From Bacillota bacterium (GTDB taxonomy: Bacteria; Bacillota; Clostridia; Peptostreptococcales; Anaerovoracaceae), in the NCBI GenBank assembly GCA_029008005.1, contig JAQXIX010000009.1, positions 1-54,173 of the forward strand: a stretch of 54,173 bases of DNA. Direction: 5' to 3'. Every line of letters begins with the position of its first letter. Position 1 is the first letter of the stretch. The position numbers and the translations under genes are program-made. The notes under the pieces are model-generated. The model made no database searches. It saw only the letters and a list, made by a program, of their open reading frames with translations, and was not told where the DNA came from. This document shows, piece after piece, positions 22,467 to 38,572 of this stretch.

Positions 22467-23927
22467 ATGAATATCAAAATCGACAGAAAAGGGAAAATAC
22501 CGGTTTATATGCAGATATTCACCGAAATCAGACAAATGATTTACAGCGGTAGATTTGCAGACGGATTTGAACTGCCTTCAGAACGAATTATGGCGCGGAA
22601 GCTCGATGTTCACAGGAATACTGTGACACGTGCATATGCAGAGCTTAAAGACGCAGGACTTGTTGAATCCAAGCAGGGCGTTGGATATACGGTATCCTTT
22701 AAACAGGATAAAACCGAAGAATACAGGAAAAAAGCTGTAAACTGGCAATCGCTTATGCGAGAGGAATATTTTACTTTCGAAAGTGACTTTGATTACCTTT
22801 ACAGCAGAAGCTTCGATGAGAAAATCATTTCATTCGGCGGCGGTGTTGCAGCCAGGGAAGTATATCCCATGGATGAGGTTTCCGCATATTTCGAGAAGGT
22901 GATTCGAAATGTTAACAAAAAATCTTATTTCCACATGCCTTATCAGGGAGACCTGGAGCTCAGAAAAGAAATATCATCTTTCATGAGACTTAAAGGAATA
23001 GATGCCAAGACATCTCAGATTCAGGTGTTCAGGGAGAACAACCAGGCAATGAACTTCGCTCTGTCGCTTTTGCTCGAACCGGGGGAAAAGGTAATTACTC
23101 CTGATGCCATGTCGGCAGACCTGTACAGAACAATAAGACTGGCAGGAGGTGAAGTAATACCTGTTCCGACAGACGAGGAAGGAATGATATGCGAAAATCT
23201 GGAGGCGATTCTGGAGAAGGAAAATCCTAAATTCATATATGTGGATTCCGGCTTTAACAATCCGGCGGGATGGGAGCTGAGCATCGAGAGGAGAAAAAGA
23301 ATTCTGGATTTATCTTACAGATACAGAATACCCATTATTGAGGAAGACGAAGGATCGGAACTGTATTATGAGGGAATATCCGCACCGTCGATGATGTCAA
23401 TGGATACGGAGGGTAACGTATTATATCTGTATTCGTTTTCACTTACAATGACGCCGGGAATAGGCCTGGCGTTTATTATTGCGCCGGATCTGATAATCGA
23501 GAGACTGAAGAATATGGCGTCTCTTCATACGACAAGTCCCGACTGGGTATCCCAGAGAGTACTCATGGAATATATGAAAGACGGTATTTACTTAAGACGA
23601 CTCGATGATTTCAGAAATGTGTGCAGGGAAAAGAGGAACCTCATGTGCGGGATTCTTGATGATATGAAGAACTACGGTATATCCTACATGAAACCGAGAG
23701 GTGGCGTTTACGTATGGATAAGGCTTCCGAAAGGTATCAGCTCGAGAGAATTGTTGAGATGCTGTCAGAAAAAGGGAATAACCTTTATGCCGGGATATGT
23801 GTTTTATTCCGTTAAAAATCTAGGAAACAATTATGTGAGACTGAATTATTCTTATCCGTCTTTGGAAGAAATAAGAGAAGGAATGGGGATATTCCGCGAA
23901 GTTCTGGGAGAAATAACTGGCACATGA
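22467..23927 (+). CDS. MocR-like GntR/aminotransferase-fold regulator lacking the PLP lysine
   Basis: Two-domain transcription factor: a GntR winged helix (about 10-75; PVYMQIFTEIRQMIYSGRF, LPSERIMARKLDVHRNTV) joined to a type I aminotransferase fold, 486 residues. In MocR regulators PLP is held by a lysine in a GSFSK motif and by Asp and Tyr in EDDYDSE. Here those read YSFSLTMTPG (Leu326) and EEDEGSE (Glu293 and Glu295). The FNNPAGWELS loop and the late arginine (YVRLNYSYP) are kept. The fold therefore seems intact while covalent PLP binding seems impossible. It lies just upstream of the arc operon, whose promoter has a direct repeat suited to such a regulator. Control of arc genes is inference. 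Confidence 0.9.
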   Translation: MNIKIDRKGKIPVYMQIFTEIRQMIYSGRFADGFELPSERIMARKLDVHRNTVTRAYAELKDAGLVESKQGVGYTVSFKQDKTEEYRKKAVNWQSLMREEYFTFESDFDYLYSRSFDEKIISFGGGVAAREVYPMDEVSAYFEKVIRNVNKKSYFHMPYQGDLELRKEISSFMRLKGIDAKTSQIQVFRENNQAMNFALSLLLEPGEKVITPDAMSADLYRTIRLAGGEVIPVPTDEEGMICENLEAILEKENPKFIYVDSGFNNPAGWELSIERRKRILDLSYRYRIPIIEEDEGSELYYEGISAPSMMSMDTEGNVLYLYSFSLTMTPGIGLAFIIAPDLIIERLKNMASLHTTSPDWVSQRVLMEYMKDGIYLRRLDDFRNVCREKRNLMCGILDDMKNYGISYMKPRGGVYVWIRLPKGISSRELLRCCQKKGITFMPGYVFYSVKNLGNNYVRLNYSYPSLEEIREGMGIFREVLGEITGT

Positions 23928-24030: not shown

Positions 24031-25029
24031 ATGGCAGTAAATTTGAAGGGTAGAAGTTTCTTAACACTTATGGATTTCACAGCAGAAGAAATCAGATACA
24101 TGCTTGATCTGGCACACGATCTCAAGGCAAAGAAGAGAGCCGGAATTCTTGGCGAAACAATGAAGGGAAAGAATGTTTGTCTGCTTTTCGAAAAAACATC
24201 AACAAGAACAAGATGTGCTTTTGAAACAGGTGCACTGGAAGAAGGCGCACACGTAACATTCCTGGACAGCAAATCATCACAGATGGGTAAGAAGGAATCC
24301 CTTGAAGATACAGCTAAAGTTCTCGGAAGATTCTACGATGGAATCGAATACAGAGGATATGATCAGAAAGTAGTTGAAGACCTTGCTAAGTATGCAGGAG
24401 TTCCTGTATGGAACGGTCTTACAGACGTTGACCATCCAACACAGATTCTGGCTGACATGCTCACAATCGAAGAGCACGTTGCTAAGCCGCTGAACAAGTG
24501 CAAGGTAGTATTCGTTGGTGACGTTAGAAACAATATGGCATATGCATGGATGTACGGCTGTGCAAAGATGGGAATGCACTTCGTAGCTTACGGTCCACAG
24601 GAACTGTGCGATCAGGTAGATGCTGACGTAGTTTCAAGAGCAAGAGCTGTTGCAGAAGAATCAGGCGCAGTAATCGAAGTAAGTTCAGATATCGAATCAA
24701 TCAAGGGTGCAGATGTTCTGTACACTGACATCTGGGCATCAATGGGTGAAGAAGACCAGATTCCTGAAAGAGTAAAACTCCTTACTCCTTTCAGAGTAAC
24801 TAAGGAAATGATGGCTGCAACAGGAAACGATGATTGCCTCTTCCTCCACTGCCTGCCTTCATTCCACGATTTCGAAACAACAATGGCAAAGACTCAGATG
24901 GAACTCGGCTATGACATCAGAGAGGTTACCGACGAAGTATTCAGAAGCAGAAACTCAAAGGTATTTGACGAAGCTGAAAACAGAATGCACACAATTAAGG
25001 CTGTAATGGTAGCAACAATAGGTAAATAA
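24031..25029 (+). CDS. arcB: Ornithine carbamoyltransferase (probably catabolic)
   Basis: Reversibly exchanges carbamoyl between citrulline and carbamoyl phosphate; in the ADI pathway it cleaves citrulline to ornithine and carbamoyl phosphate. The 332 residues show the carbamoyl-phosphate site [22 protein letters not shown], and the ornithine/cysteine loop HCLPSFHD. Sequence alone does not separate catabolic from anabolic enzymes, but the position directly before arcA and arcC favours arcB. AAAGGAGAAC precedes the start. First gene of arcB-arcA-arcC-lyase; codon choice (GAA, AAG, ACA, TCA rich) suggests high expression compared with the neighbouring mocR-like gene. Confidence 0.95.
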
Positions 25030-25071: not shown

Positions 25072-26292
25072 ATGATACCTGGAATTCATAATTTCTCAGA
25101 AATCGGAAAGCTGAACAAGGTGCTTCTTCACAGACCGGGCCTTGAACTTGAAGCTCTGACACCATCGACAATGGAAAGACTCCTCTTCGATGACATACCT
25201 TATCTTAAGGTTGCTCAGGAAGAACATGATAGATTCGCTGAAATTCTCAGAGAAAACGGAGTTGAAGTTGTATACTATGTTGAAGAGGTTGCTAAGGCAA
25301 TCTCTTCACCTGAACTTCAGGAACAGCTTATTAATGATTTTCTTGATCTTAGTAATTTCACATCAATCGGGATGAGAGAAAATATGGTGAAATACCTTAT
25401 GAGTCTCTCTCCGGAAGAAATGGTTGCAAAGTTAATTGCCGGAATCAAGAAGAATGAGGTTCCTTCGGAGTCCGTAAGTTCCCTTATGGATCTTGTACAT
25501 GATGATTATCCGTACATTTCGGATCCAATGCCGAACCTTTATTTCACAAGAGATCCGGGCGCATGTGTAGGAAACGGAATAAACATTCATCACATGCATA
25601 CACAGGAAAGAAGAAGAGAATCTCTGCTTCTCAAGTACATGTACAAGTACAACAGAGATTTTGCAACAGAAGAAAACAAGCAGTGGTATGATGTAACAGG
25701 CGATTACTCCATCGAAGGCGGAGACGTTCTCGTTCTCTCGTCCGAAATGGTTGCAATAGGTTTTTCACAGAGAACTACAATTGCCGGAATTGAGCACTTT
25801 GCCAGAAATCTGCTTGCAAACTCATCATTCAAAAAGGTTCTCGTTTTCGATATTCCGAAGTCAAGAGCATTCATGCATCTTGATACTGTATTTACAATGG
25901 TTGACTATGATAAGTTTACTATTCATCCGGAAATCGAAGGCCCTCTGGGAGTATACGAAATAACTCTCGGCAAGGACGGAGAACTGAAATTCTCAGCAAT
26001 GAAGGATGAACTTCAGAACATCCTTGCAATGGAACTTAAGCTTCCGGCTGTAGAGCTTATCAGATGCGGCGGCGGTGAACTGCTTGCTGCTCAGAGAGAA
26101 CAGTGGAATGACGGTTCCAATACACTCTGCATTGCACCGGGAACAGTAGTTACTTATGAGAGAAACTACGTTTCAAATGAACTTCTTGACAGAAAGGGAA
26201 TCAAGGTTCTCACAATGCCAAGTGCAGAGCTTTCAAGAGGAAGAGGCGGCCCTAGATGTATGAGCTGCCCTGTGAACAGAGATGATTTATAA
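25072..26292 (+). CDS. arcA: Arginine deiminase
   Basis: Hydrolyses arginine to citrulline and ammonia, the entry step of arginine fermentation. The 406 residues carry the guanidino-group modifying fold motifs: NLYFTRDPGACVGNGI, EGGDVLVL, HLDTVFTMVDYDKF with the catalytic histidine, IRCGGG, and the catalytic cysteine in GRGGPRCMSCPV near the C-terminus. AAAGGAG lies before the ATG. It sits 42 bases after arcB and 17 before arcC. No arginine/ornithine antiporter (arcD) is found in the window. Confidence 0.98.
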   Translation: MIPGIHNFSEIGKLNKVLLHRPGLELEALTPSTMERLLFDDIPYLKVAQEEHDRFAEILRENGVEVVYYVEEVAKAISSPELQEQLINDFLDLSNFTSIGMRENMVKYLMSLSPEEMVAKLIAGIKKNEVPSESVSSLMDLVHDDYPYISDPMPNLYFTRDPGACVGNGINIHHMHTQERRRESLLLKYMYKYNRDFATEENKQWYDVTGDYSIEGGDVLVLSSEMVAIGFSQRTTIAGIEHFARNLLANSSFKKVLVFDIPKSRAFMHLDTVFTMVDYDKFTIHPEIEGPLGVYEITLGKDGELKFSAMKDELQNILAMELKLPAVELIRCGGGELLAAQREQWNDGSNTLCIAPGTVVTYERNYVSNELLDRKGIKVLTMPSAELSRGRGGPRCMSCPVNRDDL

Positions 26293-26309: not shown

Positions 26310-27254
26310 ATGGCAGAAAAAATTGTAATAGCTTTAGGCGGAAACGCCCTTCAGTCAGGTAAGGGTCCTGCTACGGCAGAGGCACAGCTTGAAGTAGTTA
26401 AGAATACATGTGAAAGAGTTGCTGAAATCAGCGAAATGGGATATGAACTTGCTGTTGTACACGGCAATGGTCCTCAGGTTGGAAGAATTGTAATGGCAAG
26501 TGAAGCAGCAAGAGAAGTTACTCCTGCAATGCCTTTTGACGTATGCGGCGCAATGTCACAGGGTTACATCGGATATCACATTCAGCAGGCTCTGACATAT
26601 GCTCTGAACAAGCAGAACAGAGACATTCCTGTAGTTACTGTTGCAACTCAGGTAATTGTTGATGAAAATGATCCTGCATTCAGCGCTCCTACAAAGCCTA
26701 TCGGACCTTTCTACAGTGAAGAAGAAGCAAAAGCACTTGCGGAAGAAAAGGGATGGACTGTTAAAGAAGATGCCGGAAGAGGTTGGAGAAGAGTTGTTGC
26801 ATCACCTAAACCGAAGGATATCGTTGAAATTGATGCAGTTAAGCAGCTCTGGGATAAAACAATCGTTGTAACATGCGGCGGTGGCGGAATTCCTGTAGTT
26901 GAGAAGATGGACGGACACCTTGAAGGTGTTGCAGCCGTAATCGATAAGGATTTTGCAGCAGAACTCCTCGCAGAACAGGTAGAGGCTGATATGCTTATTA
27001 TCCTTACGGAAGTTGAAAAGGTTGCAGTAAACTTTAATAAGCCTGATCAGAAGGATCTCGATTACATGACACTGAAGGAAGCTGCGGCTTACATCGAAGA
27101 GGGACAGTTCCCTGCAGGAAGCATGCTGCCTAAGGTTGAAGCTGCAATGAAGTTCGTAAGAAAGTATCCAGGCAAGAAGGCAATTATCACATCACTTGAT
27201 AAGGCCGTTGATGCACTTAACGGAGAAACTGGAACTGTCATTACATTTAACTAA
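26310..27254 (+). CDS. arcC: Carbamate kinase
   Basis: Transfers phosphate from carbamoyl phosphate to ADP, giving ATP, ammonia and carbon dioxide: the energy-yielding step of the ADI pathway. The 314 residues match the amino-acid kinase fold with IVIALGGNALQ at the N-terminus, VVHGNGPQVGRI, VCGAMSQGYIGY, GRGWRRVVASPKPKDIVE, CGGGGIPVVE and the end SLDKAVDALNGETGTVI. Start supported by ATAGGAGAA. Third gene of the arc operon, 21 bases ahead of the lyase paralogue. Confidence 0.97.
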   Translation: MAEKIVIALGGNALQSGKGPATAEAQLEVVKNTCERVAEISEMGYELAVVHGNGPQVGRIVMASEAAREVTPAMPFDVCGAMSQGYIGYHIQQALTYALNKQNRDIPVVTVATQVIVDENDPAFSAPTKPIGPFYSEEEAKALAEEKGWTVKEDAGRGWRRVVASPKPKDIVEIDAVKQLWDKTIVVTCGGGGIPVVEKMDGHLEGVAAVIDKDFAAELLAEQVEADMLIILTEVEKVAVNFNKPDQKDLDYMTLKEAAAYIEEGQFPAGSMLPKVEAAMKFVRKYPGKKAIITSLDKAVDALNGETGTVITFN

Positions 27255-27275: not shown

Positions 27276-28619
27276 ATGAAACTTAGTGCTAAAGAGTTCA
27301 TGGCTTCTATCAGAGATGATAATATCCTTTATCATGAGGAAATAGTATGCAGTATTGCCCACAGCAGAATGCTTGTGGAGCATGAAATGCTTTCCCGGGA
27401 GGAATCGGAACAGATAATAGAGGCACTTGAGGAAATTGACAGGGATATTAAGAACGGTAAAATAAGATTTGATACTGATGCCGAAGATATCCACGAATAT
27501 ATTGAGAATCTGCTGGTTGAAAGAGTAGGAACGATCGGAAGAAAGCTTCACAGAGCGAGAAGTGTAAACGATCAGGTTGTAATGGATTCAAGACTGTTCC
27601 TGAAGAATGAAGCAATATCATGCAGGGAAATGATAAACGACTTGCTTGATACTCTTGAAGTTCTCGCGACAGAACATCAGAATACTATAATTCCGGGTTA
27701 TTCGCATCTGCAGAGAGCACAACCGATTACTCTTGCATATCATTTGCTGGCATATTACCAGATGTTTAAGAGAGACGGTATCAGATTCGACAACTGTATC
27801 GAATGTATCGATATGATGCCGCCTGACAGTGGAGCACTTGCAGGAACAATTCTGGAAACAGACAGAAGCGAAATGATGAAGGAACTTGGATTCGCATCGA
27901 TGCTTCCAAACGCTATGGATGCAATCTCAGATAGAGATTTCGCCATGGAATTCACTAACTGCTGTGCGATTACTATGATGCATCTTTCCAGATTCTGCGA
28001 AGATCTTATTCTTTGGAGCTCTGTTGAATTCGATTTTATCGAAATTGCCGATAAATATACAACCGGAAGCAAAATGATGCCGAAGAAGAAGAATCTGGAT
28101 GTTGCGGAACTTATCAGAGGCAAGACAGGAAGAGTGTACGGAGATCTGATAAATCTTCTCACAGTTTTCAAGGGACTTCCTATGGCATATAACAGAGATA
28201 TGCAGGAAGACAAGTATGCAGTTCTTGATGCTGCGAATACTCTCGAAAGTTCACTTTCTCTCTTCGTTGAAATGGTTAAGACCATCAAGATTAACAGAGG
28301 AGAAATGCAGAAAGCCGCTAAATACGGATATATGAATGCGGTAGAACTGTCACAGTATCTGTATGATAAGGGCGTCGACTACGATGAAATACCTGAAATT
28401 GTAAGCAAAGTTATCGGATATGCCATCAACAGAGGTTCTGCAATTGAAGAACTGTGGCTTGATGATCTGAAAAACTTCTCACAGAAGTTTGACAGTGATG
28501 TATATGATGAAATCGCAATCAGAAATGTAATTGAGTCAAAGAAGTCAACAGGTTCCACTTCATTTAAGAGCGTTGAAGAACAGCTTGCTCAGATAAAGCG
28601 CGACAAAAAGAGAAAATAA
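27276..28619 (+). CDS. Divergent argininosuccinate lyase paralogue with altered active site
   Basis: A 447-residue member of the fumarase/argininosuccinate lyase superfamily, clearly related along its length to the canonical argH in this window. Key motifs differ. The signature loop GSSIMPQKKNPD of the canonical copy is GSKMMPKKKNLD, so the catalytic loop serine is Lys266. TARSRNDQ is RARSVNDQ (93-100), HMNIE is HEYIE (73-77), LPLGSGALAGTTY is MPPDSGALAGTIL, THLQRAQP is SHLQRAQP, and the N-terminal WKGRF segment is absent. The frame is intact and the ribosome site (TGGAGGAG) good, so it is not a decaying gene. It is the last gene of the arc operon, before a strong terminator. True reaction unknown; ordinary ASL activity seems unlikely. 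Confidence 0.85.
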   Translation: MKLSAKEFMASIRDDNILYHEEIVCSIAHSRMLVEHEMLSREESEQIIEALEEIDRDIKNGKIRFDTDAEDIHEYIENLLVERVGTIGRKLHRARSVNDQVVMDSRLFLKNEAISCREMINDLLDTLEVLATEHQNTIIPGYSHLQRAQPITLAYHLLAYYQMFKRDGIRFDNCIECIDMMPPDSGALAGTILETDRSEMMKELGFASMLPNAMDAISDRDFAMEFTNCCAITMMHLSRFCEDLILWSSVEFDFIEIADKYTTGSKMMPKKKNLDVAELIRGKTGRVYGDLINLLTVFKGLPMAYNRDMQEDKYAVLDAANTLESSLSLFVEMVKTIKINRGEMQKAAKYGYMNAVELSQYLYDKGVDYDEIPEIVSKVIGYAINRGSAIEELWLDDLKNFSQKFDSDVYDEIAIRNVIESKKSTGSTSFKSVEEQLAQIKRDKKRK

Positions 28620-28819: not shown

Positions 28820-30085
28820 ATGGCAAAAGAAAAAGTTGTACTGGCATATTCAGGCGGTCTTGACACATCGGTAATAATGAAGTGGCTCCAGGAAAACTAC
28901 GATTATGATGTAATTGCGGTATGCTGCAATGCGGGACAGAAAGAGGATTTCGATGCAATAGAGAAGAAAGCTATCGCATCAGGGGCATCAAAGGCGATTA
29001 CACTTGATATCAGAGAAGAATTCATTACAGACTACATATGGCCTACATTAAAGGCAGATGCCAAATACGAGCAGTATCTGCTGGGAACATCAATGGCAAG
29101 ACCGCTGATGGGTAAAAAGCTTGTCGAAATTTGTCAGCAGGAAGGAGCATATTACATAGCTCACGGATGCACCGGCAAGGGAAACGATCAGGTGAGATTC
29201 GAAAGTGCAATTAAAGCGCTGGATCCGTCAATTAAGATAATTGCTCCTTGGAGATTCTGGGATTTCCAGTCAAGAGAGGATCTTATAGCTTATGCATCCA
29301 AGCATAATATACCTATTGCACAGACAGAAGCCAAAATTTACTCCAGAGATGAAAATATATGGCACATCAGTCATGAGGGCGGAGAACTTGAGAATCCGTG
29401 GAATGAACATTATGACAGCATCCATGTTCTCAGTGTTCCTATTGAGAAAGCTCCGGACGAGCCGACTTATGTGGAAATAGATTTTGAGAACGGAGTTCCG
29501 GTAGGAATAAACGGAGAAAAGAAAGATCCGATTTCTCTTCTTACAGAACTTAATGAACTGGGAAGCAAGAATGGTGTCGGTACTATTGACATCGTTGAAA
29601 ACCGTCTCGTGGGAATGAAGTCAAGAGGCGTTTATGAAACTCCGGGAGGTACAATTCTCTATGCAGCTCATGCAGGTCTGGAGGAGCTTATCCTCGACAG
29701 AGACACAACTCATTATAAGGATATTGTAGCGCATAAACTTGCAGAGCTTCTCTATAACGGATTATGGTTTACACCATTGAGAGAGGCAATCAGCGCGTTT
29801 ATTGATAAAACACAGGAAAATGTGACGGGAACAGTGAAAATGAAACTCTACAAGGGTCATGCTGTCCCTGTAGCCAAGAAATCACCATTCTCTTTGTATA
29901 ACGAAGAATTTGCCACATTCAGTGCGGATGAAGTATACAACCAGAGTGACGCTGAAGGGTTTATCAATCTTTGGTCATTGCCTCTTAAGATTCGTGCAAT
30001 ACAGATGGAGACAGCCAAAGGAAACACGATGGAACGTGAAGGCCTGGAGAAGAAGGTCATCAAAGCAAGTGAGTTTGTTGAATAA
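28820..30085 (+). CDS. argG: Argininosuccinate synthase
   Basis: Joins citrulline and aspartate using ATP (to AMP and pyrophosphate) to give argininosuccinate. The 421 residues begin with the PP-loop [17 protein letters not shown] and include [28 protein letters not shown] with the substrate-binding region, and [21 protein letters not shown] lies before the start. It has its own promoter and is followed by a hairpin before carB. With ADI upstream producing citrulline it could recycle citrulline to arginine. Confidence 0.98.
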
Positions 30086-33392: not shown

Positions 33393-34751
33393 ATGAAACT
33401 ATGGAAAGGCAGATTCGCTAAGGCATCAGCGACATCGGCAGATGAGTTTAATGCATCAATCGGGTTTGACAAAAGATTGTATAAAGAAGATATTACAGGA
33501 AGCATTGCTCATGCGCAGATGCTGGGGAAACAGGGAATCATTTCTCCTGATGAATCAGAGCTTATAATTAAAACTCTTAAAGAGATACTTGACGATATTG
33601 AAGACGGCAAGGTGGAGTTCACAATAGAAAGTGAAGATATTCATATGAATATCGAGACACTGCTTACAGAAAGAATAGGAGATACGGGCAAAAAGCTTCA
33701 TACGGCAAGAAGCCGTAATGACCAGGTCGCTGTGGATTTCCGCCTGTACCTTAAAAATGAAATAAAAGAGACGGACGAGAAAATCAAGATGCTTCTCGAA
33801 ACCCTCAAGAAACTTGCGGAGGAACATGTAGAAACCGTAATGCCGGGATATACTCACTTGCAGAGAGCGCAACCGGTTACTTTGGCATATCATCTGCTGG
33901 CCTATTACCAGATGTTTGCCAGAGACAGGGAACGGTTCGCAGACTGTATGACAAGAGTTGACAGACTTCCTCTCGGAAGCGGTGCTCTGGCAGGAACCAC
34001 ATATGATACCGACAGACAGTTTCTTAAAGAGCAGCTGGGTTTTGCCTCCGTACTTCCCAATGGAATGGATGCTGTGGCAGACAGAGACTTTGCGCTTGAA
34101 TTTCTAAGCTGCGTGTCAATTACGATGATGCATCTTTCGAGATTTTGCGAGGAACTGATTAACTGGAGTTCCGTTGAATTCGGTTTTATCGAAATGGACG
34201 ATGCATATTCTACGGGAAGCAGCATAATGCCTCAGAAGAAAAACCCTGATATGGCTGAGCTCATAAGAGGTAAAACAGGCAGAGCATACGGAGATATGAT
34301 GTCACTGTTTACTGTGTGCAAAGGCTTGCCGCTGGCGTACAACAAAGATCTCCAGGAGGATAAGGAGCCTGTGTTTGACGCTGCAGACACGATTAAAGCA
34401 TCTCTTGGCATTTTTACCGAAATGATATCAACCATGACGGTAAAAAAAGAGAATATGCGGGCTGCAGCCAGATATGGGTATATGAATGCTACGGATGCGG
34501 CAGATTATCTTGTATCGAAAGGAATTCCTTTCAGAGACTGTCATGCAATAATAGGCAATATGGTTCTTTACTGTATCAATAACGGTAAAGCTCTTGATGA
34601 ACTTACTATGGATGAATTCAAATCATTCTCTGAAGCCTTTGATGAAGATATCTACGAAGCGATTGATGTTGTAAACTGTATCAGAGCCAAAAAATCAGAA
34701 GGATCCACATCATTCGAAAGCGTTAAAAAACAGATTGAGGATTTGAAATAG
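33393..34751 (+). CDS. argH: Argininosuccinate lyase
   Basis: Splits argininosuccinate into arginine and fumarate. I chose the ATG at 33393 (MKLWKGRF, 452 residues) because GGAGGG precedes it; the frame is open 24 bases earlier. All family motifs are canonical: WKGRFA at the N-terminus, EDIHMNIE, HTARSRNDQVAVD, YTHLQRAQPVTLAYH, LPLGSGALAGTTY and the signature TGSSIMPQKKNPD (274-286) with its catalytic serine loop. This intact copy is the reference against which the arc-operon paralogue looks altered. Nine bases separate it from fumarase alpha, which would consume the fumarate it makes. Confidence 0.97.
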   Translation: MKLWKGRFAKASATSADEFNASIGFDKRLYKEDITGSIAHAQMLGKQGIISPDESELIIKTLKEILDDIEDGKVEFTIESEDIHMNIETLLTERIGDTGKKLHTARSRNDQVAVDFRLYLKNEIKETDEKIKMLLETLKKLAEEHVETVMPGYTHLQRAQPVTLAYHLLAYYQMFARDRERFADCMTRVDRLPLGSGALAGTTYDTDRQFLKEQLGFASVLPNGMDAVADRDFALEFLSCVSITMMHLSRFCEELINWSSVEFGFIEMDDAYSTGSSIMPQKKNPDMAELIRGKTGRAYGDMMSLFTVCKGLPLAYNKDLQEDKEPVFDAADTIKASLGIFTEMISTMTVKKENMRAAARYGYMNATDAADYLVSKGIPFRDCHAIIGNMVLYCINNGKALDELTMDEFKSFSEAFDEDIYEAIDVVNCIRAKKSEGSTSFESVKKQIEDLK

Positions 34752-34760
34752 GAAGTTATA

Positions 34761-35603
34761 ATGAAGATTATCAACGTCGGAAAAATTGAAGATGCTGTCA
34801 AAAGACTTTGCATTGATGCTAATTATCACTTAAGTGATGATGTGCAGCAGTGCATTCACAGATGTGCAGCCGAAGAACCTTGGCCGGTGGCCGCAGATGT
34901 TCTGGCAGACATAGAAAAAAATATTGAAATTGCCGGCAGGGGCGAGTATCCTCTATGTCAGGATACAGGAATGGCATGCGTCTTCATGGAAATCGGACAG
35001 GGTGTCGTAATTGAAGGCGGTTCTGCTGAAGATGCTGTAAACAGAGGGGTTAAGGCGGCATATGAAGAAGGCTATCTGAGAAAGTCTATTGTAGCGGATC
35101 CTTTGAGGAGAGTTAACACGGGCGATAATACTCCTGCAGCGATTTACTGGGATATTACAGCAGGGAGCAACCTTAAAATAACCGTGGCGCCTAAGGGATT
35201 CGGATCTGAAAATATGAGCAGGATCGCAATGCTTCCTCCTTCCGCAGGGGAAGAAGGCGTTAAGAACTTCATAGTTGAAACATGTGAGATGGCAGGTGCG
35301 AACCCGTGTCCTCCGATTGTTGTCGGCGTCGGAATAGGCGGTAATTTCGACAAAGCGGCGCTAATGGCCAAGAAGGCTCTGCTGAGACCGCTGGACAGCA
35401 GCAGCGAATCTGATTATTACAGAAAAATGGAGGAGGAACTGCTTGAGCAGATTAATTCACTTGGCATAGGGCCACAGGGATTCGGGGGCAGGACGACGGC
35501 TCTCAAAGTTAATATTCTCACAGCTCCCACACATATTGCGGGATTGCCGGTTGCAGTCAATATTAACTGTCATGTCTGCAGGCACAAGGAGGTGATTCTC
35601 TGA
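34761..35603 (+). CDS. Class I fumarate hydratase, alpha subunit
   Basis: Catalytic half of the oxygen-sensitive [4Fe-4S] fumarase that hydrates fumarate to malate (the family also includes tartrate dehydratases). The 280 residues have the three expected cluster cysteines: [13 protein letters not shown] near 62, [19 protein letters not shown] near 180 and the C-terminal NCHVCRHKE, plus [10 protein letters not shown] and [11 protein letters not shown]. The stop overlaps the beta-subunit start by one base. Placement directly behind argH supports fumarate as substrate rather than tartrate. Confidence 0.94.
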
Positions 35604-36172
35604 TGGAGCATTATCTCGAAGAGCCTTTTACCAAAGATAAGGTAAAGGAATACAAGGCCGGAGATACAGTGTATATAACAGGTACTGTTTACACAGCAAG
35701 GGATGCGGCTCACAAACGAATTTCAGAAATGATGGAAAGAGGCGAAAAGCTGCCTTTTGATATTAATAATTCCATAATATATTATGTTGGACCGACCCCG
35801 GCCAGACCCGGGAAACCTATTGGATCGGCAGGTCCCACAACAAGCTACAGAATGGATGCTTATGCGCCGGATTTTCTTGATTCCGGGCAGCTTATGATGA
35901 TAGGCAAGGGGTTGAGATCAGAGAAGGTTCTTGACGCTGCTCTGAGCAACGGCGCCGTATACTGCTGTGCCGTAGGAGGTGCAGCCGCACTTATGGCTCA
36001 ATCGGTTAAGTCATCGGAATTAATTGCCTTTGAGAATCTGGGCGCCGAAGCAGTCAGGAAACTCTATGTGGATAAAATGCCTGTTAAAGTAGTTTTTGAC
36101 ACAGACGGAGAGAATCTATATGAGAGTGGACGAAAATCATATCTTGAGTGGAATGAAAGGGGGATTCTGTGA
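35603..36172 (+). CDS. Class I fumarate hydratase, beta subunit
   Basis: The second subunit of two-part class I fumarase, 189 residues, corresponding to the C-terminal domain of single-chain FumA. Family features are AGDTVYITGTVYTARDAAHKR, YVGPTPARPGKPIGSAGPTT, GKGLRSEKVLDA and ENLGAEAVRKLYV. AAGGAGGTGATTC, one of the best ribosome sites here, lies inside the alpha gene end. Its stop overlaps the GTG start of the TetR gene. Confidence 0.94.
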   Translation: MEHYLEEPFTKDKVKEYKAGDTVYITGTVYTARDAAHKRISEMMERGEKLPFDINNSIIYYVGPTPARPGKPIGSAGPTTSYRMDAYAPDFLDSGQLMMIGKGLRSEKVLDAALSNGAVYCCAVGGAAALMAQSVKSSELIAFENLGAEAVRKLYVDKMPVKVVFDTDGENLYESGRKSYLEWNERGIL

Positions 36173-36823: not shown

Positions 36824-36867
36824 AAAAAACAGCTGCAGTGTTCACTGAACATCTGCGGCTGTTTTTT
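36824..36867 (+). terminator. Long terminator-like hairpin in the bile salt hydrolase leader
   Basis: AAAAAACAGC pairs with GCTGTTTTTT, and the inner part continues for ten more pairs with one bulged base and one G-U, closing on a 3-base loop. The final T6 makes it a typical intrinsic terminator. Only 18 bases separate it from the next start codon, so no promoter fits in between; it is either the end of fumarase-tetR or an attenuator of the gene behind it. Confidence 0.8.
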
Positions 36868-36885
36868 GAAAAAAGGGGGAGCAAA

Positions 36886-37863
36886 ATGTGTACGGCAGTA
36901 ACATATAAGACAAAAGATTTTTATATGGGAAGAAATCTCGATTATGAATTTTCGTATGGTGAGGAGGTCGCGGTAACTCCAAGAAACTTTTCGTATGATT
37001 TTCGCCATGACAGAAATGCTGATTCTCGTTATGCCATAGTGGGGATGGCTCATATTGAAGACGGATATCCGTTATACTATGATGCTGTCAACGAACAGGG
37101 GGTAGGCATGGCGGGACTGAATTTCGCAGGAAACGCTTTATATGGAAGACACAACAGTGAGAAGAGAAACGTTGCCCAGTTTGAGATTATACCGTGGATA
37201 CTGAGTCAGTGCGGAAATCTGGAGCAGGTGAGAGGGCTGCTGGAAGATACGAATATTACTGATGATGCTTTCAGCAGCAGCCTGCCTCCCTCTCAGCTTC
37301 ACTGGATTATTGCAGATGAAACAGGTGCAATAACTCTTGAAAGTACAGAAAAAGGATTAAAAGTATATGAAAACACAGCAGGTGTGCTTACAAATAACCC
37401 TCCTTTTGACATGCAGATGATGTACTTGAATAATTTTATGGGTTTATCGCCAAAGCAGCCTGATAATCGTTTTTCGGAGGAGCTTGAACTTAATCACTAC
37501 AGCCGCGGAATGGGAACAATGGGGCTGCCGGGAGACCTTTCGTCTTCTTCAAGATTCGTTAAAGCTTCATTCGTGAGAGCCAATTCCGTATCAGGCAGTG
37601 ATGAGATGAGCAGTGTCAGTCAGATGTTTCACATTCTGGCATCTGTTGAGCAGCAGAAAGGGTGTTGTGAAGTAAGCGAAGGCAAGTATGAATACACTAT
37701 ATATTCTTCCTGCTGGAATGCCAGACGAGGCATATATTATTATACAACTTATGACAGGCATATGATATCGGCAGTTAATATGCATGCCGAGGATCTTGAC
37801 GGAAAAGAAATCGTTACATATCCACTGATGGAGGGGGATCATATTCTTATGCAGAATTTGTGA
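36886..37863 (+). CDS. bsh: Choloylglycine hydrolase family protein, probable bile salt hydrolase
   Basis: Ntn hydrolase expected to cut the amide bond of glycine- or taurine-conjugated bile acids; relatives are penicillin V acylases. The start at 36886 (325 residues) is required because the catalytic cysteine must be residue 2 (MCTAVTY) and be exposed by removal of Met; AAGGGGGAG precedes it. Visible are MGRNLDYE (Arg16, Asp19), NEQGVGMAGLNF (Asn), LTNNPPFDMQM (Asn), and the bile-salt-type MGTMGLPGDLSSSSRF with the late arginine in SFVRAN. These last motifs favour bile salt hydrolase over penicillin acylase. No signal peptide, so cytosolic. Confidence 0.88.
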   Translation: MCTAVTYKTKDFYMGRNLDYEFSYGEEVAVTPRNFSYDFRHDRNADSRYAIVGMAHIEDGYPLYYDAVNEQGVGMAGLNFAGNALYGRHNSEKRNVAQFEIIPWILSQCGNLEQVRGLLEDTNITDDAFSSSLPPSQLHWIIADETGAITLESTEKGLKVYENTAGVLTNNPPFDMQMMYLNNFMGLSPKQPDNRFSEELELNHYSRGMGTMGLPGDLSSSSRFVKASFVRANSVSGSDEMSSVSQMFHILASVEQQKGCCEVSEGKYEYTIYSSCWNARRGIYYYTTYDRHMISAVNMHAEDLDGKEIVTYPLMEGDHILMQNL

Positions 37864-37954: not shown

Positions 37955-38572
37955 ATGGAAATTGAGCTTAAATACAATATTCCCGGGGAGAATATTGAGA
38001 AGGCAATATGGGAAAACGAACTGTTTTCTCAATACGAAGAAGAAGGATCCAGAGAAGAAGTAATGCTGGATAACCTGTATTTCGACACTGAAGAATGCGA
38101 TCTTGAAAAAAATGAGATAGCTTACAGAATAAGGTGTGAGAAAGACAGGCTGGTGGCGTCCCTTAAGTGGAAGGGACACAGCGAAGACGGACTTCATGTC
38201 AGAGAAGAGATAAATGTTCCTGTTACAAGCAGCGAACCGGATCCGGAGGTTTTTGAGGAAAGCAAGGTCGGAAGCGAATTCATGGAACTGGTTGACGGGA
38301 AGGAACTGAAATGTTTCATGGAAATGAAGGTCTTCAGAAGAAGGTTCAGAATCGACGTTGATGATGCTATTTTCGAGATTTCACTTGACAGTGGAGAAAT
38401 GATTACCGAAAAGGGCAATGCCGAAATACATGAAGTCGAAGTGGAACTGTTTTCAGGTGACACAGACAGTCTCGTGAAGGTAGGAAATCTTCTTCAGGAG
38501 AAATACGGACTTGAACCGGAAGATAAAAGTAAATACGCACGTGGAATAGAGCTTATAAAGAGACATAAATAA
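37955..38572 (+). CDS. CYTH domain protein (triphosphate tunnel family)
   Basis: A 205-residue protein of the CYTH superfamily, which includes inorganic triphosphatases, thiamine triphosphatases and class IV adenylate cyclases. The hallmark ExExK is at residues 2-6 (EIELKY). Alternating charged strands follow: LDNLYFDTEECDL, YRIRCEKDRLVASLKWKG, RRRFRIDVDD, EISLDSGEM and EVEVELFSGD, lining the expected tunnel with Arg, Lys and Glu. AGAGGAAGG precedes the start. It is a single-gene unit between a promoter and a terminator that overlaps its stop codon. Substrate not predictable; simple triphosphatase activity is most likely. Confidence 0.9.
   Translation: MEIELKYNIPGENIEKAIWENELFSQYEEEGSREEVMLDNLYFDTEECDLEKNEIAYRIRCEKDRLVASLKWKGHSEDGLHVREEINVPVTSSEPDPEVFEESKVGSEFMELVDGKELKCFMEMKVFRRRFRIDVDDAIFEISLDSGEMITEKGNAEIHEVEVELFSGDTDSLVKVGNLLQEKYGLEPEDKSKYARGIELIKRHK

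Follow-up and report, generated by a model that had tools for sequence, protein, structure and literature searches.

A divergent argininosuccinate lyase paralogue with an apparently rebuilt beta-carboxylate pocket ends an arginine deiminase operon in a Bacillota bacterium

Introduction

What role may a second gene of the argininosuccinate lyase (ASL) family play at the end of an arginine deiminase operon, a few kilobases away from an ordinary argH? This question is raised by a contig of a Bacillota bacterium of the family Anaerovoracaceae (JAQXIX010000009.1, assembly GCA_029008005.1), of which the whole stretch of 54,173 nucleotides, hereafter the window, was analysed. The initial annotation, made from the sequence alone, described an ASL paralogue with active-site changes linked to arginine catabolism, and our comparison supports that description through conserved and coordinated changes, the operon context and a clade of its own. 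Here we describe what this protein keeps and what it has changed with respect to ordinary ASLs, where it occurs, and which function may best explain these features. We found no paper on such a paralogue in the literature searched, whose coverage leaves out most subscription journals.

Results

The gene and its operon

The paralogue, named ASL2 here, is the open reading frame at 27276-28619 (+), which is unbroken and encodes 447 aa with the Pfam domains Lyase_1 (PF00206) and ASL_C2 (PF14698). It is the last gene of an operon with the order MocR-arcB-arcA-arcC-ASL2. A MocR-type regulator with GntR and aminotransferase domains (22467-23927, +; PF00392 and PF00155) lies upstream of arcB, which encodes ornithine carbamoyltransferase (24031-25029, +; TIGR00658, 380.9 bits, cut-off 280.85), and is followed by the genes of arginine deiminase, arcA (25072-26292, +; TIGR01078, 503.6 bits, cut-off 489.1), and carbamate kinase, arcC (26310-27254, +; TIGR00746, 417.6 bits, cut-off 358.25). 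Only 21 bases, containing a GGAGG box, separate arcC from ASL2, and the terminator scan of the window listed no terminator-like site in this gap. The gene is thus intact and at the end of the arcB-arcA-arcC operon, as had been proposed. In the genomes that carry ASL2, arcC immediately precedes it in 15 of 17 fetched loci, the two remaining loci beginning at a contig edge that falls at or within ASL2, and the MocR-type regulator is present in 13/17.

Downstream lie argG (28820-30085, +) and the argH proper (33393-34751, +; TIGR00838, 633.2 bits), an ordinary ASL that served for comparison and is 56% identical to ASL2. The distance from the end of ASL2 to argH is 4.8 kb, and the starts of the two genes are 6.1 kb apart, in agreement with the distance of about 6 kb given before. 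The differences that the initial annotation listed between both proteins were all found again: the signature loop reads GSKMMPKKKNLD in ASL2 vs GSSIMPQKKNPD in argH, three substrate motifs are altered (ARSVNDQ, HEYIE and MPPDSGA in ASL2; ARSRNDQ, HMNIE and LPLGSGA in argH) and the WKGRF start is missing. Genes for the alpha and beta subunits of a class I fumarase follow argH (33393-36172, argH included) and could use fumarate released by a lyase. Further on, at 36838-37863, there is a choloylglycine (bile salt) hydrolase-like gene (463.9 bits, cut-off 350), and a CYTH gene at 37955 in the window flanks the locus.

The catalytic residues are kept

We compared 17 ASL2 rows with 52 ordinary ASLs from the genus and family and 28 more from the class. 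These 80 are loci returned by the searches, mostly the best-scoring ones, and the class rows, 95 in total, include repeats of earlier genes. Duck delta-2 crystallin numbers correspond to ASL2 (query) numbers +18, according to the chain offsets in the alignment, and human ASL numbers to query +16; in this way His144, Glu278 and Lys271 of ASL2 become His162, Glu296 and Lys289 of the duck enzyme.

In CreD the loop base of the superfamily is Ser302, with Lys308 and Asn310 on the alpha-carboxylate (PMC13411527), and in AspB it is Ser318, with Lys324 and Asn326 (PMC11744663). By this numbering the base lies six residues before the Lys of GSSxxPxKxN, that is, at the first Ser. In ASL2 this position (Lys271 minus 6) is Ser265, which is identical in 17/17 copies, while Lys266 occupies the position of the second Ser. 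The earlier proposal that Lys266 stands in place of the catalytic serine of the superfamily did not hold, since the base is Ser265; the loss of the catalytic serine is rejected, and with it the argument built on that loss falls. The loop (residues 264-275; 28065-28100, +) contains Gly264, the base Ser265, Lys266, Lys271 and Asn273. Relative to the GSSxxPxKxN consensus, ASL2 has retained the first Ser, the Pro, the Lys and the Asn, the second Ser is Arg or Lys in 17/17 and the Gly is altered in 4/17.

The whole superfamily set, Ser265, Lys271, Asn273, His144 and Glu278 (Ser283, Lys289, Asn291, His162 and Glu296 in duck numbers), is identical in 17/17 ASL2 copies. The equivalents of Ser29, Asp33, Asp89, His91, Asn116, Tyr323, Gln328 and Lys331 are also identical in 17/17; we take these positions, in duck numbers, to have roles at the arginine end of the substrate. 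His162, Glu296 and Lys289 are named as active-site residues in the duck enzyme (PMC2779060). The retention of 13/13 active-site positions would have P ~0.001, but we do not rely on this value as the 13 were chosen from 18 considered, of which five are changed in ASL2. The W-x-GRF segment is a gap in 17/17 ASL2 and is present in 95/95 ordinary rows of the class (repeats included). Divergence is wide and goes beyond the active site, given that ASL2 keeps 128 of 209 columns that are near-invariant among ASLs.

An apparently rebuilt beta-carboxylate pocket

The 80 ordinary ASLs are uniform at Arg115, Thr161, Leu201, Gly202, Ser284 and Lys325, and also at Ser114. At the Arg115 site (residue 97, in the RSVNDQ motif, residues 95-100; 27558-27575, +), where 52/52 and 28/28 ordinary ASLs have Arg, ASL2 has Val in 16 copies, including Val97 of the window, and Ile in one. 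The Ser284 site (residue 266) is Arg in 14 and Lys in 3 of the 17, neither residue being found there in ordinary ASLs (0/52 and 0/28). Substitutions distributed in this way exceed what chance would give. Two more changes fall in the MPPDSGAL segment (residues 181-188; 27816-27839, +): the invariant Gly202 (residue 184; Gly in 52/52 ordinary ASLs) is Asp in 16 copies, as Asp184 here, and Glu in one, and the invariant Leu201 (residue 183; Leu in 52/52) is Pro in 17/17. Thr161 is replaced by Ser and Lys325 by Arg, each in 17/17, and Ser114 by Gly in 4/17. In the duck enzyme, the change T161S leaves about 70% of activity (PMC2779060). A subgroup of four rows (L019, L020, L025 and L026) lost the loop Gly (CT-x-S for TGS) and has the Gly for Ser114.

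On the ASL2 tree, position 266 switches three times, always between Arg and Lys; the nearby positions 264 and 267 underwent four changes each, towards varied residues. From these alignments, the positive charge at 266 looks to be itself under selection.

Evidence on the location of these sites comes from CreD. Its second Ser, Ser303, takes part in the binding of the C4 (beta) carboxylate, and the mutant S303A has no activity; Thr122 and Ser123 also bind this carboxylate, Ser123 from another monomer, and in simulations it contacts Ser123 of the other monomer, Ser303, also through its backbone, and Arg341' (PMC13411527). The same report equates Leu170 with the His of ASL (PMC13411527). Thr122 and Ser123 of CreD lie 48 and 47 residues before Leu170, and Ser114 and Arg115 lie 48 and 47 residues before His162. 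Given these contacts and the matching spacing, homology places Arg115 and Ser284 in the beta-carboxylate pocket, to which they should contribute from different subunits, and we infer that the two sites form part of one such pocket in ASL2. Positive charge appears to have moved from the neighbouring subunit (115) onto the loop (284), where the new Arg or Lys would take over from the lost Arg115, and the new Asp or Glu at 202 would be near both sites.

Other readings of these changes should be considered. The human mutation R113W, an ASL-deficiency mutation according to a title in the reference list of PMC2851718, affects Arg113, the same site as residue 97 of ASL2 (query +16), so the swap of Arg115 could also have killed the activity of ASL2. 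Moreover, the backbone contact of CreD Ser303 implies that the contact could survive any side chain at 284. The 115/284 swap arose once, and a mutual dependence of its two halves is not statistically demonstrable.

Distribution, phylogeny and selection

Of the 49 genomes of the genus, 17 contain a full-length ASL2, that of the window being one of them, and one more (G020) has a contig-edge fragment. Two of the eight named host records refer to goat gut; the others carry MAG project names such as RUG, which presumably indicate a rumen origin. In a tree of 69 rows with midpoint root, a 100/100 branch with a long stem separates the 17 ASL2 from all other rows; it joins at the point at which the argH of ASL2 hosts plus four sister species split off from the remaining genus and family. 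The simplest reading, with the caution due to long branches, is that ASL2 arose by duplication of argH within the genus.

Beyond the genus, no ASL2 was seen in a profile search of a sample of 393 genomes of the order, the loop being read in the best-scoring loci: 12 ASL2 rows scored at least 859 bits and the next row 697.5. In a sample of 391 genomes of the class, ASL2 was found only in the genome of the window, the next row being the argH of the window (655 bits). A more distant relative could score lower in these profile searches, in which the loop was read in the returned best-scoring loci, and the scan of genome contigs used short peptides of the query, which detect near relatives only.

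ASL2 is under purifying selection. Its median dN/dS is 0.084 (Nei-Gojobori, 103 of 136 pairs computable, the rest being saturated), with values of 0.04-0.11 in the six least saturated pairs, and the 17 full-length copies have no internal stop. Compared over identical genome pairs, its median non-synonymous change is higher than that of argH by a factor of about 1.5 and than that of arcA by a factor of 2.4, and the copy of G037 has a different C-terminal tail. We are not dealing, then, with a unique copy under relaxed selection, a possibility raised before, and in the literature searched we saw no homologue with these substitutions for which an assay is described.

Two hosts keep ASL2 without detectable argG or argH

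We found argG in 16 of 18 host genomes (the 17 full-length hosts plus G020); the search did not find it in G021 (96% complete, 7% contaminated) or G028 (84% and 1%). These two genomes also gave no second ASL, while argH was detected in 14/17 full-length hosts; in G037 no argH was seen, but the contig ends inside argG. Of the fetched loci, 13/17 have argG downstream of ASL2, and those of G029 and G007 reach a contig edge just after ASL2, with argG on another contig. In G021 (L076) and G028 (L075) the sequence is unbroken from ASL2 to the CYTH gene, and argG, carB and argH are missing from it.

In both genomes ASL2 retains all the residues named above as kept, and its dN/dS is 0.05-0.07 in pairs with G028 and 0.08-0.11 in pairs with G021, whose arcC is also high (0.13-0.15). 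That ASL2 is kept under selection where argG and argH are not detectable argues against a role that depends on ArgH and against a substrate made by ArgG, on the thin base of two draft genomes, one of them 7% contaminated. In this sense, the earlier suggestion that ASL2 pairs with the real ArgH is disfavoured.

The neighbouring arginine genes

The arc locus is shared by those congeners without ASL2 that were fetched, and it closes with arcC or, in two of them (G008 and G032), with another arcB. This additional arcB-like gene after arcC (L136, L137) is about 80% identical to the arcB of the window and stands at the place of ASL2. Identity to the window is 86-94% for arcB and 82-94% for arcC in ASL2 hosts, and 77-90% and 75-85%, respectively, in congeners without ASL2. 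For arcA it falls from 84-96% in hosts to 65-71% in congeners without ASL2. As arcA jumps while arcB and arcC do not (loci L083-L112), the middle gene of the operon appears to have been swapped in place. Within the genus the host-type arcA is found in the 17 ASL2 hosts and in G045 (68% complete; 87% identity), where the contig ends inside arcA and ASL2 was not found. In the arcA tree, the 15 rows from hosts group in a single clade that falls among sequences of other genera and not with arcA of congeners (SH-aLRT only). In the subclade in which ASL2 arose, arcA thus seems either to have been exchanged in place or to have diverged through old paralogy. A further arcA paralogue, distant (about 55% identical) and located outside the arc operon, occurs in some congeners (e.g. 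G012 and G014; L145, L146).

In G028 (L075, 8692-10953), ASL2 is directly followed by two genes, one resembling dimethylargininase (385.9 bits, cut-off 450) and the other an arginine-ornithine antiporter (371.9 bits, cut-off 591), which hints that arginine derivatives may be used. Both genes are found together elsewhere in the genus, and in some hosts (G033, G010 and G007) they are near argH. Dimethylargininase was discarded as a specific partner of ASL2, for it occurs in 11/18 hosts (87-100% identity), plus a contig-edge fragment, and also in 6 genomes without ASL2 (76-95%).

Discussion

Comparison with known systems

ASL2 shares with ArgH (TIGR00838; PF00206 plus PF14698) the fold family as judged by sequence, the length, and the acid-base and arginine-end residues. 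It differs in the absence of W-x-GRF, in the changes at 115, 284, 202, 201, 161 and 325, and in its place at the end of the arc operon. The argH equivalog is its best NCBIfam match, with 495 bits against a cut-off of 279.5, whereas the Arg115 of the RSRNDQ motif that marks ArgH is absent. By homology it belongs to the ASL family; given the state of Arg115 and of the loop, we do not file it as an argininosuccinate lyase. Duck delta-1 crystallin, an inactive ASL paralogue, is like ASL2 a duplicated ASL that diverged for another use. However, the two aligned delta-1 chains keep the GSS loop and the RSRN motif, and ASL2 changed exactly these.

The nitrosuccinate lyase CreD is another member of the superfamily, which holds the C4 carboxylate by a differently placed Arg (Arg341') and lacks one canonical catalytic residue (PMC13411527). 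It is very distant from ASL2, keeps both loop serines and lost the His that ASL2 keeps (PMC13411527). The coenzyme M enzymes XcbC and XcbD (NF052535, NF052536) are related to ASL by sequence, with other substrates judging by their names; ASL2 scores 154 and 45.9 bits against their cut-offs of 575 and 600, so we rejected its membership. We also rejected a role as stand-in for adenylosuccinate lyase. The PF00206 members seen in the genome of the window (G000, 86% complete) are only argH and ASL2, with no adenylosuccinate lyase, but ASL2 reaches 63.9 bits on the purB model (cut-off 326.2) and the nearest relative, G016, has a third member besides argH and ASL2.

Proposed function and rival explanations

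We consider that ASL2 is probably a catalytically competent lyase, derived from ASL and working in arginine catabolism, whose beta-carboxylate pocket was rebuilt and whose substrate changed. We give this reading a probability of roughly 55% from sequence comparison, and favour a changed substrate because it is this pocket that was rebuilt. In the proposed history, argH would have been duplicated inside the genus and the copy recruited into the arginine deiminase operon, in the same subclade in which arcA was apparently exchanged for that of another lineage. The usual chemistry would be retained in an active ASL2 tetramer, Ser265 taking the C-beta proton, the His144/Glu278 pair serving the leaving group and Lys271 and Asn273 holding the alpha-carboxylate. 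The pocket that was rebuilt would be the one for the second carboxylate, which stabilises the negative charge as elimination proceeds; there, the Arg of the neighbouring subunit (115) would be replaced by the Arg or Lys of the mobile loop (284), with the new Asp or Glu at 202. The substrate may be an arginine-type succinyl compound that does not come from ArgG but is imported, or arises from arginine plus fumarate by the reverse reaction. A more specific version is offered tentatively, as a possibility somewhat short of even odds: ASL2 might perform a new reaction in which the beta-carboxylate Arg has moved between subunits and, within arginine catabolism, either act on an arginine-type succinyl compound or join arginine and fumarate into argininosuccinate, in both cases with no need for ArgG or ArgH.

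It is less probable that ASL2 is an ordinary argininosuccinate lyase isozyme under arc control, the Arg swap being a neutral or kinetic rearrangement. The match to the argH equivalog, the retention of all acid-base and arginine-end residues and a net charge preserved by the gain of Arg or Lys where an Arg was lost would agree with an isozyme, but ASL2 differs at six positions (115, 161, 201, 202, 284 and 325) at which the 80 ordinary ASLs are all alike, most full-length hosts (14/17) already have a detected argH, and in G021 and G028 no ArgG was found to make argininosuccinate. We also regard as unlikely a pseudoenzyme that senses arginine or argininosuccinate, or that joins ArgH tetramers and damps arginine synthesis against a futile cycle. 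Three subunits contribute to each active site in the superfamily (PMC13411527), which would allow mixed tetramers to poison ArgH, and in such tetramers the 115/284 pairings would be mismatched; the altered hallmark loop and RSRNDQ motif point in the same direction. Nevertheless, a non-catalytic protein need not keep an acid-base set identical in 17/17 copies, and the two hosts without detectable argH keep ASL2 with dN/dS of 0.05-0.11, so that it is not solely an ArgH partner. Finally, the faster non-synonymous change and the different tail of the G037 copy might suggest a decaying duplicate heading for loss, which we find highly improbable in view of the median dN/dS, of reading frames free of internal stops, and of a charge at 266 held through three Arg/Lys changes.

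Significance

The curated argH model accepts ASL2, and automatic annotation would label it argininosuccinate lyase and hide it. If active, ASL2 would be a natural case in which the hallmark second loop Ser is replaced by Arg or Lys while the catalytic base is kept; it would also test how a beta-carboxylate can be held, and be a lead for the engineering of lyases. For the biology of these uncultured organisms, ASL2 points to a possibly undescribed step in the use of arginine by gut bacteria.
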